This document shows positions 42,755-51,641 of a stretch of DNA of 64,000 nucleotides, piece by piece. The translations under genes were made by a program, and so were the position numbers. Within the stretch, counting starts at the first letter, position 1; each line of letters opens with the position of its first letter. Source of the stretch: Candidatus Binatia bacterium (GTDB lineage Bacteria; Desulfobacterota; Binatia; UBA12015). The notes beneath the pieces were generated by a model that was not told the DNA's origin, searched no databases, and saw only the letters and a list, made by a program, of their open reading frames with translations. The stretch spans positions 124,001-188,000 of the forward strand of contig JAQWJE010000039.1 in NCBI GenBank assembly GCA_029248525.1, read 5' to 3'.

Positions 42755-43642
42755 ATGAGTTCGTCGACAGAACATGAGGGGTCGGGTCCGCGCCCGTGTC
42801 TGATTTGCGGTGCGCGCGGCGCCAAGCCGTTGCACGGGCCGAGGAGCTCTCTTTACCGATGTTCCTGCGGACAGGTATTTGTCGATCCGATCCCCTCCGG
42901 CGATGAGATTGCTCAGCGTGAAGATGACGCGTTTGCCGGCGGGTTGATGGACGAAACGGCTGAGATGTTCACCGCGTATTATCGAGATTTCCCCGAGGAT
43001 CCTGTGGTTCTCGGTTTTCGGGCAACTCTCGAGCGCCTGCATCAGTTGACCGGCGGCGGGCGATTGGTGGATGTCGGGATCGGGACCGGTCTGTTGCTCC
43101 ACCTTGGGAAGGAGGCTGGATTCGACGTTCTGGGATGCGAAATCTCTCCCGGAGCAGCGGCGAAAGCTACGGAGGAGTTCGGGGTGGAGGTGCAGGTCGG
43201 TGATTTTCTCGAGGCCGAGTTCAGCGTCGCTCCATCTGTCATCACGATGGCGGACGTACTCGAGCACACGCACGACCCGCGGATCTTTCTCGAGCATGCT
43301 CTGGGAACTCTGAAACCAGGGGGGGCTCTTTTCGTGGCTGTGCCCAATCACCGATCGACCCTTTTCGGGATGGCTGATATCCTTGCGCGGCTTCCGGTAG
43401 TGGGAAGTCTGGCGGAACGCCTCTACGTGCCGAACCATTATTGGTACTTCACACCAGCGACTCTCCGAAGACTTGCTGAGGACGTGGGGTTCGAAGTCAG
43501 CGAGGTTCGTGGTGACACCCCATACCTTGGACGCTACAGCTTTTCCTTTCCGATTCGTGCGGGACTCGCGGTACTGTTCGCGATCGGGAAATGGACGGGT
43601 CTGGAAGGACGCGTCGAGATCTATGCCCGCAAACCGGCATGA
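42755..43642 (+). CDS. Class I SAM methyltransferase with N-terminal zinc ribbon
   Basis: 295 residues. Two cysteine pairs (CLIC at 15-18 and CSC at 36-38) make a small N-terminal ribbon. The methyltransferase core has LVDVGIGTGLLLHL (motif I), VLGCEISPGAAA, and ITMADVLEHTHDP, typical for Methyltransf_23-type enzymes. The C-terminus has FTPATLRRLAEDVGF. Such proteins often act on sugars, lipids or quinones. It lies between a divergent DUF35 gene and an acyl-CoA ligase 32 bases downstream. Confidence 0.85.
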   Translation: MSSSTEHEGSGPRPCLICGARGAKPLHGPRSSLYRCSCGQVFVDPIPSGDEIAQREDDAFAGGLMDETAEMFTAYYRDFPEDPVVLGFRATLERLHQLTGGGRLVDVGIGTGLLLHLGKEAGFDVLGCEISPGAAAKATEEFGVEVQVGDFLEAEFSVAPSVITMADVLEHTHDPRIFLEHALGTLKPGGALFVAVPNHRSTLFGMADILARLPVVGSLAERLYVPNHYWYFTPATLRRLAEDVGFEVSEVRGDTPYLGRYSFSFPIRAGLAVLFAIGKWTGLEGRVEIYARKPA

Positions 43643-43674: not shown

Positions 43675-45315
43675 ATGGAAAGTTTTAATCTCGCAATTTT
43701 GAACGAGCGGCTCGCGGAAAGCATGCCGGATCGTGAGTGTATGGTTTTTGGCGAACGTCGCTTGACGTACGCTGAAGTCGCCGAGCGTTCCCGTCGACTC
43801 GCCGACTATCTCCGCAAGGAGGGATTGGGTGAGGCGACCGATCGTCAGGGCCTGCCTGGCTGGCGCTCGGGGCAAGATCACCTGGCGCTCTATTTGATGA
43901 ACGGCAATGAGTATATCGAGGGTATGCTCGGAGCCTTCAAGTCACGGACTGTTCCGATCAACGTGAACTATCGTTACGTGGAGGAGGAGCTGCGGTATCT
44001 CCTTCGCGACGCGGGGGCCCGGGCCGTGATTTTTCACGCTCGCTTTGCAGAGCAGTTGGCCAAGATTCTGCCCGACCTGCCGGAGCTCAAAGTATTGATT
44101 CAGGTGGAAGACGAAAGCGGAGCCCCGCTTCTGCCCGGAGCGATCGGGTACGAGGATGCTCTGGCCGCCGGATCCCCCGATCCTGTGAGCATGGAGGCAT
44201 CGCCCGACGATCTCTATGCTCTGTATACCGGCGGAACGACCGGGATGCCGAAGGGCGTTCTCTGGCGGCAACATGATATTTTCATGGCGGCGATGGGCGG
44301 ACGACTTCAGGATGGTAGCGGCTTTGTCGAGAGCACCGACCAGGTTCTGGAGATGGCGGTGAATGGAGGAATGAAGGTCCTGGCGGCTCCACCGTTCATG
44401 CATGGCGCCGGTCATTGGCTCGCTTTCATTACCCTTCATGGGGGCGGGACACTCTTCATCCAGAACGTCGTGGACCGTCTCGATGCGCATGATCTTCTCG
44501 CTACGATCGAGCGCGAGAAAGTGAATTTGATCGTGATTGTCGGTGACGCGTTTGGTCGGCCTCTTCTCGACGCGATTCGGGAGGGCAACTACGACCTTTC
44601 CAGCCTCTTCGTGGTGGCCAATGGAGGGGCTCCGCTCAGTGTGACGGTGAAAGAGGCGCTCCTCGAGCAATTGCCGCACGCTTTGGTCATGGACGGAATT
44701 GGTTCCTCCGAAACTGGTCAACAGGGAATGCATACCAGTTCCAGGGAAAGCGGCGCGTCTACCGGGAAATTCACGCCTGTGGACGACACCTGTGTGGTCG
44801 ACGAAAACCTCCAGACCCGATTGACGCCGGGTAGCCCGGAGGTGGGATGGTTCGCCAAGGGCGGAAATGTGCCCCTTGGGTACCTCGATGACGAGGAGAA
44901 AACCCGCAAGACTTTCCCCGAGATCGAAGGTGTTCGTTATGCGGTTCCGGGGGATCGTGCCCGACACCTTGAGGATGGTTCCGTAGAGGTTCTCGGGCGG
45001 GACTCCGTGACCATCAACTCAGGCGGCGAGAAGATTTTCGCAGAGGAGGTCGAGCAGGCCTTGCTGGCACATCCGGCTGTTTATGATGCGATTGTTGCCG
45101 GTCGAAAAAGCTTGCGCTGGGGGCAGGAGGTCGTAGCCGTCGTGCAACTGAAGGAGGGCGTGGAAACTTCGAACGCAAGCCTGCTCGAGGAATGCGCTCG
45201 CCATCTTGCACGCTATAAGCTGCCCAAGGATTTTGTGTTTGCGGAGCGAATCCAGCGCAGTCCAAGCGGGAAGGCCGATTATCGCTGGGCCAGATCGCTT
45301 GTGGAAACTCCGTGA
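43675..45315 (+). CDS. AMP-dependent acyl-CoA synthetase
   Basis: 546 residues; GGAG precedes ATG 43675. ATP motif YTGGTTGMPKGVLW near residue 182, the A5 motif GIGSSETGQQG near 342, and SGGEKIFAEEVE with the C-terminal catalytic Lys in SGKADYRW mark a fatty-acyl-CoA ligase of the ANL superfamily. It shows the QHDIF segment shared with steroid- and medium-chain-type ligases. It lies 1 kb from the thiolase/DUF35 pair, but on the opposite strand; the substrate is not defined. Confidence 0.92.
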   Translation: MESFNLAILNERLAESMPDRECMVFGERRLTYAEVAERSRRLADYLRKEGLGEATDRQGLPGWRSGQDHLALYLMNGNEYIEGMLGAFKSRTVPINVNYRYVEEELRYLLRDAGARAVIFHARFAEQLAKILPDLPELKVLIQVEDESGAPLLPGAIGYEDALAAGSPDPVSMEASPDDLYALYTGGTTGMPKGVLWRQHDIFMAAMGGRLQDGSGFVESTDQVLEMAVNGGMKVLAAPPFMHGAGHWLAFITLHGGGTLFIQNVVDRLDAHDLLATIEREKVNLIVIVGDAFGRPLLDAIREGNYDLSSLFVVANGGAPLSVTVKEALLEQLPHALVMDGIGSSETGQQGMHTSSRESGASTGKFTPVDDTCVVDENLQTRLTPGSPEVGWFAKGGNVPLGYLDDEEKTRKTFPEIEGVRYAVPGDRARHLEDGSVEVLGRDSVTINSGGEKIFAEEVEQALLAHPAVYDAIVAGRKSLRWGQEVVAVVQLKEGVETSNASLLEECARHLARYKLPKDFVFAERIQRSPSGKADYRWARSLVETP

Positions 45316-45466: not shown

Positions 45467-46693
45467 ATGAATCTGCGCATTGCACGATATATCGATCGTT
45501 GGCTCGGCTTGTTTATTTGCTTCGGTCTCTGGGCGATCAGCCGAGCGCTCGGACGTCTGCCCCCTCTCGGTGCAACGACCCCGCCGGAAGACGGTCCGCT
45601 GAAACGTCCCAGGCGAGTTCTGGGGATCAAGTTCTATGGGCTCGGGAACATTGCGATGATTCTCCCGACCGTGGCCTCGGTTCGCGGCGAGGGTGAAGTT
45701 GAGTTTGATTTCCTGACCCTTCCAGGTAACCGCAGCCTGCTGGAACAGAGCGGTCTGGTCTCGACGGTTCTGACCGTAGATGTCGACAGCTTCCCGAATT
45801 TTCTGGGCTCTGTTTTTCGTCTCCTTCGCCAGTTGCGTGGTGGCTACGATGCCGTCCTCGACTTCGAGCAATTCATGAAGCTGTCGAGTATTTTAGGTTC
45901 CTTGACGAGCGCTCCGGCCGTGGTCGGGTTCAATACAGATGGTCAGGCTCGCGGTTGGCTCTATACGCACCGGGTGGCTTATGCCGACACCGATCATATG
46001 GCTGATATCTTCATGCGCCTGGCTGTCCCTCTTGGTCGAGAAACCCTTCCGGCGCCACTGATCCTGCTTCCGACGCTGCCGCAGGACCGCGCGGATATTC
46101 AGGAACGATTCCCCGAGGATCCGGATAAACCTCTGGTCCTGATGCATGTGGGTACGGGGCCGAACTTCGACAAGATTGCCATCAAGCGATGGTCAGCCTC
46201 GAATTTCGCAGCGCTTGCCGACCACCTGGTCCGTGAGCGTCATTGCCGAGTGGTATTCACCGGCGTTGGCGTGGAGGAAGCTGGACTGGTGCAACAGGTG
46301 ATCGGCATGATGGCGGAGTCTCACGCCGCTACCGACGCCTGTGACGCGCTTTCGGTGGGGGAATTGACCGCGCTGCTTGGCCATTCGCTTTGTGTGGTCA
46401 CAAACGATACCTCCATTTTGCATTTGGCAGGGTTGATGCATACCCCGGCGGTCACTTTCTTCGGGCCGACGGAGCCCCGTCTGTATGGCCCTCGAGGGCC
46501 TCTCGATCTGGTTTTCTACGAGCAACTTTTTTGTAGTCCGTGCCTGTCCAATTATAATCTCAAGATCAGCCGGTGCGTGAATCCGGTCTGCATGAAGCGA
46601 ATCGAAGTCTCAAGGGTAATCGAAACCATGGAAAGCGAATTTTTTCCCCGCCTGGATCTCGCGGCGACAAAGGCTCGACCGGAGGTCCATTGA
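45467..46693 (+). CDS. Glycosyltransferase family 9 (heptosyltransferase-like)
   Basis: 408 residues. A hydrophobic N-terminal helix (10-30) is unusual for GT9. Then GIKFYGLGNIAMILPTVA (key part GLGNIAMILPT), the donor site HVGTGPNFDKIAIKRW, VVTNDTSILHLAGLM and FFGPTEP fit the WaaC/WaaF fold. A C-terminal Cys cluster (CSPCLSNYNLKISRC) is also seen in other GT9 proteins. The gap before it (151 bases) shows nothing certain. Its stop makes a TGATG junction with the epimerase gene, so both belong to one operon. Confidence 0.85.
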   Translation: MNLRIARYIDRWLGLFICFGLWAISRALGRLPPLGATTPPEDGPLKRPRRVLGIKFYGLGNIAMILPTVASVRGEGEVEFDFLTLPGNRSLLEQSGLVSTVLTVDVDSFPNFLGSVFRLLRQLRGGYDAVLDFEQFMKLSSILGSLTSAPAVVGFNTDGQARGWLYTHRVAYADTDHMADIFMRLAVPLGRETLPAPLILLPTLPQDRADIQERFPEDPDKPLVLMHVGTGPNFDKIAIKRWSASNFAALADHLVRERHCRVVFTGVGVEEAGLVQQVIGMMAESHAATDACDALSVGELTALLGHSLCVVTNDTSILHLAGLMHTPAVTFFGPTEPRLYGPRGPLDLVFYEQLFCSPCLSNYNLKISRCVNPVCMKRIEVSRVIETMESEFFPRLDLAATKARPEVH

Positions 46694-47751
46694 TGAAGGT
46701 CCTTGTGACGGGAGCCTCAGGCGTATTGGGTCACACCCTGGTCCCTCAATTGGTCGAAAAGGGGTACGATATCCGCCTTTTCGATATGGTGCCGACGCCC
46801 GAGTCGCTGCACGACGCGGTCCGGTCGGTCGGGCGTGAGGCTCGGATCGAATCGATCACGGGGGATATGCGTGACAAGGCTGCGCTGAGCGAAGCCTGCC
46901 ACGATGTCGAAGTGGTGCATCATCTGGCGGCCGGCCAGCGCATGAAGCCACAGTTCGCCTCCTTGTCCGAACAGGATATCTTCGACATGAATTTGACTGG
47001 CGTCCAGAATGTCCTCGATGCTGCCAGGGAAAAACGAGCTCGACGAGTCGTATTCATTTCGAGTTCGGCGGTGTACGGGATTCCGCGCACCGAATTGGTC
47101 GACGAGGAGACGCATCCGAAGGAACCGCTGGGCGCTTATGGTGCGTCCAAGCTCGAGGCAGAGAAACTCTGTCTTCAGGCAATCGATGGCGGGCAGGATG
47201 TGGCCATGCTTCGACCCATGAGCCTTTTTGGGGACGGGATGACGGGCGTATTCGTCCTGCTTTTCGATTGGGTGCGCCGGAATCGGCGCGTTTTTCTCCT
47301 CGGGAGTGGCGCAAATCGCGTCCAGATGGTGGCAGCGGACGATGTCTCGCGCTGCGCGATTTTGGCGGCGACGTCCGATAAGGCGCGCGGTTTGGTTGTA
47401 AATGTCGGTTCTCCACCGGAGTCTGTGCCCTCGGTTCGTGCGCAATGCGAGGCTTTGATCGCCTATGCGGGGGCCTCGTCGAAAATCATGGCGTTTCCGG
47501 CAGCTTTGCTTCGAAACGCGGCGCGCGTGCTGAATCTTGTAGGTATGTCGCCGATCGTACCTGAGCATTATAAATTGGCGGATGTGAATTTCGTGCTGGA
47601 CATTAGTCGTGCAAGGGAGAATCTTGGTTGGGAGCCTTCGGGAGACAATATCAAGATTACTTGCGACGCCTATGACTGGTACCTCGAAAACTGGGAGCGA
47701 GTTGCGCCCAAGCCAAACCTGCCTCTGCGCATTCTGGAGGCGGTGACTTGA
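46693..47751 (+). CDS. NAD-dependent sugar epimerase/dehydratase
   Basis: 352 residues from ATG 46693, defined by TGATG. Extended SDR: VLVTGASGVLGHTL at 3-16, VVHHLAAGQ, FISSSAVYG and the catalytic YGASKLEAEK (Tyr-x-x-x-Lys). Position between a glycosyltransferase and a radical SAM enzyme suggests that it modifies a nucleotide sugar or a lipid-linked sugar. The next gene starts with a TTGA overlap. Confidence 0.88.
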   Translation: MKVLVTGASGVLGHTLVPQLVEKGYDIRLFDMVPTPESLHDAVRSVGREARIESITGDMRDKAALSEACHDVEVVHHLAAGQRMKPQFASLSEQDIFDMNLTGVQNVLDAAREKRARRVVFISSSAVYGIPRTELVDEETHPKEPLGAYGASKLEAEKLCLQAIDGGQDVAMLRPMSLFGDGMTGVFVLLFDWVRRNRRVFLLGSGANRVQMVAADDVSRCAILAATSDKARGLVVNVGSPPESVPSVRAQCEALIAYAGASSKIMAFPAALLRNAARVLNLVGMSPIVPEHYKLADVNFVLDISRARENLGWEPSGDNIKITCDAYDWYLENWERVAPKPNLPLRILEAVT

Positions 47752-48839
47752 AGCTTCGCACTTATGCAGCTCTGGCCAAGAAGGCTTTCGACGCCAATTT
47801 CAAGCGCCTCGATCATCCCTTCAAATTGACTTTCGCGATCACCTACTGGTGCAATTACAAATGCCAGACCTGCAACATCTGGAAGATGAAGCCGCGGAAC
47901 GAACTCCGGGTCGACGAAATTCGCGAGTTCTTCCGTAAATCACGAGACTTCCTCTGGGTGGATCTTACGGGCGGGGAGGTCACGCTGCGCAAGGATTTTG
48001 TCGAGATCGCGCACACTGTGATCGACGAGAGCCCGAATCTCTTGCTGCTCCACTATCCGACCAATGGCTACCTCTCGGACAAGATCGTCGAAAACACGCG
48101 CCAAATCATGGAGCGACGTCCTGAGAAACTGATCATCACGGTTTCCACGGACGGTGACGAGGCCACCAACGACGAAATTCGTGGGATTGATGGCGGGTGG
48201 CAGCGTCAGATGGAGACCTTTCGGCGCCTCCGTGAGATTCCAGGGGTCGAAGTGGTTTTGGGAATGACTCTGTCGCAGATGAACGTTGATCATTTCCCCA
48301 CCGCATTTGCTGCCGCTGCAAAGAAAATACCCGGGCTTACCTACCAGGACTTCCACGTGAATATTGTTCACGAGTCTTCTCACTATCTGGGGAACGACGA
48401 ACTCGGCCTGAGAGACCACGTGGCGCCCACCATGCTGCTCGAGTCGGTCAAGGAGGTGGCGCGACTCCGAGGTTTGCCACGAGGGCCGGTCGGCTATCTC
48501 GAGGGGCAGTATCTCGACCGTGTGGAGCGCTATCTGATGACGGGTAAAACCCCGATGCGCTGTCATGCTCTTTCCGCCTCCTGCTTTGTGGACTCGTGGG
48601 GAAATGTTTTTCCGTGCACAATCTATGATCGCAAGATCGGAAGCTTGCGCGATGTGGACTACGATCTCCGTCAAATCTGGTCGACGCCTCTGGCCGAGGA
48701 TACGCAGAAAGAGATCTGGAAGGCCGATTGCCCTCAGTGCTGGACGCCCTGTGAGGCCTACCAATCGATTATGGGGAATTTCCTGGTCCCCGGCCGCGAA
48801 CTGGGTGGATCCGAGCCCAGCCTCGAAGCCAAGCCCTGA
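47748..48839 (+). CDS. Radical SAM enzyme with SPASM-like C-terminus
   Basis: 363 residues from TTG 47748. CNYKCQTC near residue 35 holds the SAM-cluster cysteines; LTGGEVTLR follows. The C-terminal part carries CHALSASCFVDSWGNVFPCTIYD and CPQCWTPCEAYQ (quoted in short parts: SASCFVDSWGNVFPC and CPQCWTPCEA), which provides cysteines for extra iron-sulfur clusters. The family is not one I can name. Its tight overlap with a sugar epimerase and GT9 gene suggests modification of a sugar or glycolipid, rather than of a peptide: no small precursor peptide is visible nearby. Confidence 0.85.
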   Translation: MKLRTYAALAKKAFDANFKRLDHPFKLTFAITYWCNYKCQTCNIWKMKPRNELRVDEIREFFRKSRDFLWVDLTGGEVTLRKDFVEIAHTVIDESPNLLLLHYPTNGYLSDKIVENTRQIMERRPEKLIITVSTDGDEATNDEIRGIDGGWQRQMETFRRLREIPGVEVVLGMTLSQMNVDHFPTAFAAAAKKIPGLTYQDFHVNIVHESSHYLGNDELGLRDHVAPTMLLESVKEVARLRGLPRGPVGYLEGQYLDRVERYLMTGKTPMRCHALSASCFVDSWGNVFPCTIYDRKIGSLRDVDYDLRQIWSTPLAEDTQKEIWKADCPQCWTPCEAYQSIMGNFLVPGRELGGSEPSLEAKP

Positions 48840-48845
48840 CCCACC

Positions 48846-50453
48846 TCAAAGAGCGGGTTCGCATTGGGAGTCCCGGTATTGGAGAGCCTCGGCGACATGG
48901 GTTTCGGTGACCGTTGGCGAGTCCTCGAGATCGGCAATGGTTCTCGCGACGCGCAAGGTTCGATGGTAGCCCCGGGCCGTGAGTCCGAGGTGGTCCACGT
49001 TTTCCTCGAGAAGTGTACGAGCGACGGTTTCGATGCAGGCAGTCTGGTCCAACTCGTTCGGGGATAGTCTGGCATTGCAGGCGGCGTTCGCACGCACAGC
49101 CTGATGCGCCGATGCGGCGAGCACGCGCGTACGAACTTTCGCAGAACTTTCGTCGGGGAGTCCCTCCCGCAGAAATGTCGGATGCGTCGGCGGCAGGTTC
49201 AAATAGAGATCGATTCTGTCGAGCAACGGACCCGATAGGCGACTGCGATAGCGGAGTCTCGCTCCCGGACTGCAGCTGCAAGGCTGCGTGGGGTGGCCAT
49301 ACCGCCCACATGGACATGGGTTCATGGCCGCTACCAACAGGAAGCTGGTCGCAAATTGAGATTCGAGGCCGACTCGATGAAGAGTCACCTGTTGATCCTC
49401 CAGCGGTTGTCGCAGTGCCTCGAGGGTTTGGGGGTGGAATTCCGGAAATTCGTCGAGGAAAAGTACCCCATGATTGGCGAGAGCGATCTCGCCTGGCACG
49501 ATCGGACGACCTCCTCCGACAAGACCGACGCGGGTGATGCTATGATGCGGTTGTCGGCACGGCGGGTCGCCCCGGGCGAGTCCATCGATTGCGAGTCCGG
49601 CAAGTCCATGCACCGCCATGGCTTCGAGGCGCTGCCGGTCTGTCATCGGGGGGAGAATGCCCGGCAATCGCTCGGCCAGCATTGTCTTGCCGGATCCCGG
49701 AGGGCCGCAGAAAAGAACGTTGTGACCGCCGGCGGCCGCGATCTCGAGTGCTCGTTTGGCGAGTGGTTGGCCGTGAACCTCGGCAAGGTCGGGCGTGGGC
49801 GGCAACTCCTTTGTGCCCGCGCCGCCACTCGTGGGGTCGGGGCGGGGCCAAACACTTTGCAAGCGACTCTGGAGATAAATCTGTGAATGACTCTCCGAGG
49901 TGGCGCCAGCCGTGCCCGAAAGTCGGGCGTGCCCCGCGGTTTGCGTCTCTGCCGAAATCTCCATCATGGCGACGGCAGCACGCAGGTCGGCGGGCGCCTG
50001 TATGGCGAGGTCGGGTACCATCCGTGCCTCTTCTTCGTTTTGCGGTGCCACGAGCACCCGATTGAATCCTGCAGAGAATGCGCCAAGGAGTGTGGCCAGA
50101 CAACCGCGCAAGCCGCGCAGCGATCCGTCGAGAGCGAGTCCCGCCGCGACCAGGACCCGTTGGCTTTCTGGTACCGTGAGTGTGCCATGGGCCTCGAGGA
50201 GCGCGAGCGCGATTGCCAGATCGAGACCGGCGCCGTCTTTTCTTTCATCGGCCGGCGCCAGATTGATGGTGGTTCGATAGGGCGCCAAATGAAATCCGCT
50301 GGCCGCGAGTGCAACGTGAGCGCGGTCGGCAGCTTCGCGGACGGCTGGTCCGGGGAGTCCCAGCAGTTGCGTTCGGGGGAGGCCACGGGTGAGTTCCACC
50401 TCCACCTGAACGGGTCTTGGCGACATTCCCGACAGAAGGCAGCTATGAATCAT
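48846..50453 (-). CDS. comM: ComM/YifB-type Mg-chelatase-like AAA+ ATPase
   Basis: 535 residues. N-terminal ChlI domain (VQVEVELTRGLPRTQLLGLP, key part EVELTRGLP), Walker A GPPGSGKT at 250-257, PHHSI followed by VGGG, GVLFLDEFPEF (Walker B), and a CxxxCxxxxxxxCxC zinc-like group AMNPCPCGRYGHPTQPCSC (key cysteines 4). ComM is a branch-migration helicase that extends heteroduplex during natural transformation. A long linker (165-220) is less conserved. The gene ends 7 bases from the convergent radical SAM gene. Confidence 0.93.
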   Translation of the reverse strand: MIHSCLLSGMSPRPVQVEVELTRGLPRTQLLGLPGPAVREAADRAHVALAASGFHLAPYRTTINLAPADERKDGAGLDLAIALALLEAHGTLTVPESQRVLVAAGLALDGSLRGLRGCLATLLGAFSAGFNRVLVAPQNEEEARMVPDLAIQAPADLRAAVAMMEISAETQTAGHARLSGTAGATSESHSQIYLQSRLQSVWPRPDPTSGGAGTKELPPTPDLAEVHGQPLAKRALEIAAAGGHNVLFCGPPGSGKTMLAERLPGILPPMTDRQRLEAMAVHGLAGLAIDGLARGDPPCRQPHHSITRVGLVGGGRPIVPGEIALANHGVLFLDEFPEFHPQTLEALRQPLEDQQVTLHRVGLESQFATSFLLVAAMNPCPCGRYGHPTQPCSCSPGARLRYRSRLSGPLLDRIDLYLNLPPTHPTFLREGLPDESSAKVRTRVLAASAHQAVRANAACNARLSPNELDQTACIETVARTLLEENVDHLGLTARGYHRTLRVARTIADLEDSPTVTETHVAEALQYRDSQCEPAL

Positions 50454-51398: not shown

Positions 51399-51641
51399 CT
51401 AGCGCTCGAGCTCGATCTCCCAGCCCTCACGCCTTTTCAGGACCTGAATCACGGCATGTCCACTCGCCTCCGCCGCGCGGGGCAGGTTTTGCACCGCCCG
51501 TGGATCATCGACAAGAACCGCGAGGCGCGAACCTGCGGGCATTCCCTCGAGGGAAACCTTGGCCCGGGCCCAGTTCAGCGGGCATTGAACACCGCGAAGA
51601 TCAAGTAATTCCGGTGTCTGCGGGGAAGGTTGCAAGGCCAT
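51399..51641 (-). CDS. TusA-family sulfur-carrier-like protein
   Basis: 80 residues. LDLRGVQCPLNWARAKVSLE (key part LRGVQCPLNWAR) is the TusA core with the active Cys20, but the usual CPxP reads CPLN, a variant known among TusA relatives. LVDDPRAVQNLPRAAEASGH continues the fold. TusA-type proteins pass sulfur as persulfide. It is the middle gene of an operon with a DUF3467 protein 8 bases upstream and the MerR-TPR regulator 4 bases downstream. Confidence 0.85.
   Translation of the reverse strand: MALQPSPQTPELLDLRGVQCPLNWARAKVSLEGMPAGSRLAVLVDDPRAVQNLPRAAEASGHAVIQVLKRREGWEIELER

Follow-up and report, generated by a model that had tools for sequence, protein, structure and literature searches.

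A conserved glycosyltransferase, sugar epimerase and radical SAM gene module with a candidate role in envelope glycan tailoring in Binatia

We analyzed a 64,000-nucleotide stretch of DNA (hereafter the window) from Candidatus Binatia bacterium (assembly GCA_029248525.1, contig JAQWJE010000039.1, positions 124,001 to 188,000), which has a genome of 4.27 Mb and whose closest named relatives are metagenome-assembled genomes (MAGs) filed mostly under Deltaproteobacteria or Candidatus Binatia. Three overlapping genes on the plus strand encode, in this order, a family 9 glycosyltransferase (GT9), an extended short-chain dehydrogenase/reductase (SDR) sugar epimerase and a radical S-adenosylmethionine (SAM)/SPASM enzyme. 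As far as sequence comparison can establish it, the module is real and conserved in its gene order, its enzyme classes and its intact radical SAM site. The same comparison indicates that the GT9 keeps the donor-side residues equivalent to Lys192 and Asp261 of the heptosyltransferase HepI and has asparagine in place of the proposed catalytic base. On balance, we lean toward the reading that these genes, together with an upstream methyltransferase gene, form a module for tailoring a cell-envelope glycan by the steps proposed below. The features of the three genes are as follows.

45467..46693, plus strand: GT9 glycosyltransferase of the Asn-type clade (Pfam PF01075, Glyco_transf_9)
45494..45562, plus strand: N-terminal hydrophobic segment of GT9, approximately residues 10-32 (hydropathy; conserved in the GT9 alignment)
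45647..45649, plus strand: Asn61 of GT9, at the HepI Asp13 position (profile alignment to 2gt1, 6dfe and 1psw)
46693..47751, plus strand: extended SDR with a nucleoside diphosphate (NDP)-sugar 4-epimerase fold and YxxxK motif, Y149 and K153 (PF01370 Epimerase, alignment, model and Foldseek)
47748..48839, plus strand: radical SAM/SPASM enzyme with a TTG start (PF04055 Radical_SAM and PF13186 SPASM, alignment)
47850..47873, plus strand: CNYKCQTC, the CX3CX2C radical [4Fe-4S] cluster site, C35, C39 and C42 (alignment, 23/23 sequences)
48561..48752, plus strand: SPASM-type tail with C272, C290, C328, C331 and C335, CPxCWTxCE (alignment, 23/23 sequences)

At the GT9/SDR junction (TGATG), the GT9 stop codon and the SDR start codon, ATG, have one base in common. 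The SDR/radical SAM junction (TTGA) is a 4-base overlap between the SDR stop at 47751 and the TTG start at 47748, which is preceded by GGAGG. This 4-base overlap is kept in all eight relatives compared, as GTGA in seven and ATGA in one; gaps of 370 and 152 bases are found instead in loci L019 and L020, respectively. The coupled three-gene operon, proposed earlier in a sequence-only reading of the window, is thus borne out by the coordinates, the Pfam classes and the conserved order. A convergent gene at 48846-50453, judged YifB-like by eye, terminates six bases past the radical SAM stop codon, and therefore there is no space for a further gene downstream.

The comparative analysis covered 32 loci, one per genome with a radical SAM ortholog, short duplicates (L001, L003-L013, L035-L040) having been dropped. 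The orthologs in these genomes are 37-83% identical. The radical SAM gene was detected in 12 of the 14 genomes of the window's order (E ≤ 1e-30), the two genomes without it being 63% and 81% complete, and GT9 and SDR genes precede it on the same strand in all 12 loci. Across the 32 loci, GT9 lies upstream of the radical SAM gene on the same strand and within 6 kb in 25, and an SDR gene is found within 6 kb in 18 (those of L028 and L029 belong to another subfamily); the question posed in the sequence-only reading, whether GT9 and the epimerase always go with the radical SAM gene, is thus answered in the negative. Other neighbors include a related methyltransferase (16 loci), a family 2 glycosyltransferase (GT2; 9 loci) and GT-C type membrane proteins (14 loci), the last being the softest of these counts, as the label combines Pfam PMT_2 matches with membrane proteins grouped by similarity and hydrophobicity that have no PMT_2 match. 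At least one glycosyltransferase is encoded within 6 kb in 31 of the 32 loci, the remaining locus (L099) being truncated where its contig ends. Hence the radical SAM homologs were found beside GT9 (25/32) or some glycosyltransferase (31/32), rather than as isolated genes or, in the 27 loci searched for them, next to peptide precursors; the finding that would have refuted the sequence-only reading was thus not made.

Among 145 genomes sampled from the class, the same 18 possess both GT9 and the radical SAM gene, 127 possess neither and none has one alone, at limits (E ≤ 1e-110 for GT9, E ≤ 1e-160 for radical SAM) that were set after the lists had been inspected. A wide gap lies under these limits, with next-best matches of 1.8e-49 for GT9 and 1.0e-62 for radical SAM. 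In one of the 18 genomes (G039) the two genes are on different contigs. The radical SAM ortholog is rare across the phylum sample (8 of 395 genomes). Five further genomes of the phylum (G420, G399, G201, G418 and G437) keep the GT9-radical SAM pair even though their radical SAM proteins are only 38-44% identical; G340 has both genes on separate short contigs. The locus is also present on a MAG contig titled Klebsiella pneumoniae (L015), with 81% radical SAM identity and gene content like that of the window's family; the organism name on this record looks wrong.

The GT9 protein matches PF01075 with 87 bits (cut-off 22). Its extra N-terminal hydrophobic helix, noticed in the sequence-only reading, is real and conserved but short: the best 19-residue Kyte-Doolittle mean is 1.46 for the window GT9, and the other rows of the 17-row alignment that include the N-terminus range from 1.22 to 1.86 (L027 begins further in). 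These values suggest a helix seated at the membrane and not a clear transmembrane span.

A profile hidden Markov model alignment against solved heptosyltransferases places Asn61 of the window GT9 at the position of HepI Asp13. In a study of HepI, Asp13 is the proposed catalytic base, conserved in all heptosyltransferases, and activity of the E. coli enzyme falls 4688-fold in D13A, 926-fold in K192A and 2027-fold in D261A (PMC5713226). The equivalents of Lys192 and Asp261 are K240 and D314, both invariant in 17 of 17 sequences. Asparagine occupies the Asp13 position in all 27 distinct GT9s of the partner clade that come from genomes with the radical SAM ortholog (25 adjacent to the radical SAM gene; L082 and L049 unlinked in the assembly) and in none of 35 other distinct GT9s, where the residue is Asp, Ser, Thr, Ala or Gly. 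The latter set comes from the retrieved loci, which do not take in some weaker GT9 matches, and two repeated proteins (L141, the same as L132, and L088, the same as L059) were removed from it. The two other GT9s of the window's genome (L069 and L071) have Asp. Doing without Asp is common to a broader set of Ser-type GT9s as well; by this alignment, asparagine at the Asp13 position is a mark of the partner GT9 clade; the missing catalytic aspartate had not been noticed in the sequence-only reading. We infer that the acceptor of an Asn-type GT9 does not need an Asp13-type base.

In domain and fold family the window GT9 resembles WaaC and WaaF (HepI and HepII), with profile matches to 3tov, 1psw and 2gt1 and with the Lys192 and Asp261 equivalents kept; it differs from them by Asn61 in place of Asp13, by the extra N-terminal hydrophobic segment and by its location outside the lipopolysaccharide (LPS) heptose locus. 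It falls far short of the NCBIfam equivalog cut-offs for HepI, HepII or HepIII, the best being 68.0 bits against 134.6 for HepII. A role as an LPS core heptosyltransferase was considered and appears unlikely: the LPS heptose gene (TIGR02199) is found near an Asp-type GT9 on contig C8, and a further Asp-type GT9 is on C49. Because the heptose gene lies near this different, Asp-type enzyme, the window GT9 is probably not simply an LPS core heptosyltransferase.

Of 16 distinct loci with Ser- or Ala-type relatives of this GT9, four have a gene for a B12-binding radical SAM-like protein next to it (L050, L068, L088, L089 and L131, where L050 equals L068). Across the broader GT9 group, the partners may therefore be radical SAM enzymes of more than one kind.

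The SDR has TGxxGxxG and YxxxK motifs, and Y149 and K153 are invariant in 13 of 13 sequences. Its structural model (predicted local distance difference test, pLDDT, 86.0) matches UDP-sugar 4-epimerases best in Foldseek; decarboxylases and a 4,6-dehydratase rank just below them. It did not reach the cut-off of HpnA (TIGR03466; 99.3 bits against 367.65) or the curated cut-off of LegB.

In the radical SAM enzyme, C35, C39 and C42, as well as the GGE motif G75-G76-E77, are invariant in 23 of 23 sequences. The Cys-rich, SPASM-like end seen in the sequence-only reading is confirmed by a PF13186 match above its cut-off (27.7 bits against 21.5) and by five tail cysteines (C272, C290, C328, C331 and C335) that are invariant in the same 23 sequences, whereas C279 is not. 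The SPASM domain is typified by a seven-cysteine motif with two auxiliary clusters; this motif was not found, only five tail cysteines being invariant in the alignment. Radical_SAM and SPASM were the only Pfam matches, and no B12-binding domain was detected in the protein. In this it is unlike HpnJ, a radical SAM enzyme of the B12-dependent type that is connected with the cyclitol ether of hopanoids and offers a precedent for radical SAM chemistry on a membrane glycolipid sugar.

The AlphaFold2 model of the radical SAM enzyme (pLDDT 79.7, predicted template modeling score 0.82) has two top structural matches, BlsE (7vob; Z 23.2, the best VIA-align match, with 292 residues at a root-mean-square deviation of 3.3 Å and 15% identity) and the sactipeptide maturase SkfB (6efn; Z 22.8). 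Further matches are SuiB, anSME (Z 19.5), MoaA, viperin, DesII (Z 18.0), BtrN (Z 17.3) and GDGT-MAS, a lipid-acting radical SAM enzyme (Z 15.2). BlsE also has the CX3CX2C and GGE motifs, and its substrate is a sugar acid: it decarboxylates cytosylglucuronic acid (PMC3715490). Unlike the predicted role of the window enzyme, this is a soluble nucleoside substrate in antibiotic synthesis, and the available part of the same source describes no GT9/SDR operon. Since sugar and peptide enzymes are tied, the modeled fold alone cannot choose the substrate. A sugar substrate is suggested for the radical enzyme because of its glycan gene neighbors and because no precursor peptide was found.

We therefore weighed the possibility that the enzyme modifies a peptide or protein, as a maturase of ribosomally synthesized and post-translationally modified peptides or a sulfatase-maturing enzyme, and stands among glycan genes by chance. 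The SPASM domain, the high structural matches to SkfB, SuiB and anSME and the best PDB sequence match, which is SkfB, speak for it, as do a sulfatase gene in the L024 locus and a gene in L026 that is homologous by clustering. However, the sequence similarity to SkfB is confined to residues 24-189 of the radical SAM enzyme, and SkfB acts on a precursor peptide, of which none was found near the window operon. In agreement with the sequence-only reading, no precursor-like conserved small open reading frame (ORF) was present within 5 kb in any of the 27 loci (of the 32) that were searched (L031 and L097-L099 are among those left out); the small ORFs that recurred were CutA, a TusA-like protein, one other small protein and antisense ORFs. 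The radical SAM enzyme scored below the cut-off of every NCBIfam model listed and came nowhere near that of any listed maturase model. Together with the glycosyltransferase neighbors in 31 of 32 loci, these results make peptide or protein modification improbable. For the anSME family, the structural match stands beside a listing of the best 25 NCBIfam rows that contains no anSME model.

A second SPASM radical SAM protein (B) is encoded near the first in 8 of the 32 loci, the L097 copy having only 23% identity. It is located near the first in Gemmatimonadetes and in distant members of the phylum (L028, L029, L062-L065 and L098). Protein B forms a separate clade (SH-like approximate likelihood ratio test 100, six rows) in a quick tree with long branches, in which 31 rows represent the first family, from which L019 was omitted and which was used for the separation of B only. 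Protein B was absent at E ≤ 1e-30 from four tested genomes of the window's family.

Two further genes precede GT9 in the window.

42755..43642, plus strand: SAM-dependent methyltransferase with an N-terminal Cys-rich, zinc-ribbon-like segment (Pfam PF13489)
43675..45315, plus strand: acyl-CoA synthetase between the methyltransferase and GT9 (NCBIfam NF005863)

The start codon of the methyltransferase gene is uncertain, 42830 being possible. Of the 12 family loci, 10 carry this gene ahead of GT9 in the same orientation, nine of them immediately before it; L019 and L020 have no match. From this conserved position it belongs to the operon in the window's family, as the first gene; on this point the sequence-only reading, which had thought that it may belong to the pathway, was right. 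The same was suggested for the acyl-CoA ligase and is rejected: it has no tblastn match in L014-L034 (L052 and L053 were not directly searched), and the nine family loci (of 12) with the methyltransferase gene immediately before GT9 leave no space for it. By its distribution the acyl-CoA synthetase gene is a local insertion, found only in the window.

We propose the following steps. The SDR would make a nucleotide sugar by 4-epimerization or a related 4-keto reaction, and the GT9, with its N-terminal helix anchoring it to the inner membrane, would transfer this sugar to a lipid-linked acceptor whose nucleophile, such as a phosphate or acid group, would not need Asp13 as a general base. The radical enzyme, predicted to be cytoplasmic, would then abstract a hydrogen from a C-H bond of the newly added sugar. 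Epimerization or dehydrogenation is our first choice for the reaction, because the auxiliary cluster would take four of the five invariant tail cysteines and leave one as a possible hydrogen donor. The methyltransferase would cap the product. Thus, of the sugar or glycan pathway with a radical step put forward in the sequence-only reading, the glycan role stood up (31 of 32 loci with a glycosyltransferase), whereas the type of reaction is still inferred.

The radical enzyme might instead act earlier, on the nucleotide sugar that the SDR produces, with the GT9 then transferring the finished unusual sugar. The structural matches include BtrN and DesII, the latter an enzyme with a TDP-sugar substrate, and most family loci have the radical SAM gene next to the SDR gene and overlapping it. 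On the other hand, fold similarity does not tell the substrate, and GT9 is the closer partner, since several GT9-radical SAM pairs have no SDR nearby (one is within 6 kb in 18 of 32 loci); we regard this order of events as rather unlikely, although it is the foremost alternative.

Outside the window's family, sugars may be handed on via polyprenyl-phosphate chemistry, as suggested by the GT2 and GT-C type genes near the more distant orthologs. These genes, along with the GDGT-MAS match, would also suit a radical enzyme whose target is the lipid anchor or the polyprenol carrier and not the sugar. The GDGT-MAS match is weaker than those to sugar and peptide enzymes and the SDR and GT9 partners point to a sugar, so that a lipid substrate seems very improbable.

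Several observations weigh against envelope glycan tailoring by a GT9-radical SAM pair. By fold, the peptide enzyme SkfB ties with BlsE (Z 22.8 versus 23.2), and by sequence no PDB entry matches better than SkfB. The 18 genomes in which both genes co-occur represent three families and hence are not independent. All 27 GT9s of the Asn type may form a single clade, so that asparagine may have arisen only once, and most of the nearer non-partner GT9s also have no Asp (but Ser, Thr, Ala or Gly). Finally, no Asn-type GT9 was found in 5 of the 32 genomes: G357, G529, G530 and G533 have no GT9 at E ≤ 1e-15, and G534 has a Ser-type GT9 only. Therefore, GT9 is not essential to the radical reaction everywhere. 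Where it is missing, the radical SAM neighbor is a GT2 (L033 and L097) or an overlapping PMT_2 GT-C gene (L034); in L028 and L029 the genes run GT-C, GT2, radical SAM B, SDR and radical SAM. Judged by these neighborhoods, the radical SAM gene is accompanied by glycan genes everywhere, but not by GT9 alone. In L029 and L034, the radical SAM gene has genes on either side that resemble a nonulosonic (pseudaminic) acid pathway (a DegT aminotransferase, a GT28-like protein and others identified by eye).

A bolder idea, which we hold to be unlikely as a whole, is that the GT9 clade dropped its general base on an acceptor that is already nucleophilic (lipid or polyprenol phosphate) and became permanently teamed with a radical SAM enzyme, which would remodel the sugar while it is bound to its membrane carrier. 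If true, it would give Binatia-type bacteria and distant relatives a common radical route to lipid-linked envelope sugars. To our knowledge, most radical SAM enzymes with sugar substrates take part in making antibiotics and nucleosides that are soluble; if one of them forms a conserved pair with a glycosyltransferase seated at the membrane, radical sugar chemistry would also occur in the envelope of several groups of uncultured bacteria. A literature search on the GT9/glycan link, limited to open-licence papers, judged by titles and the opening of abstracts and hence weak evidence, found no description of a GT9-radical SAM pair. The Asn-for-Asp swap poses a single-residue, testable question about inverting GT-B enzymes that work without a base, and asparagine at the Asp13 position offers a simple marker for further members of the clade.

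Between the radical SAM gene and the yifB-like gene, most loci of the family contain genes for CutA (7 loci) and a GH5-type glycoside hydrolase (8 loci); neither is present at 48840-48845 of the window. A small TusA-like protein gene (named by eye) at 51399-51641 on the minus strand is conserved in the relatives.

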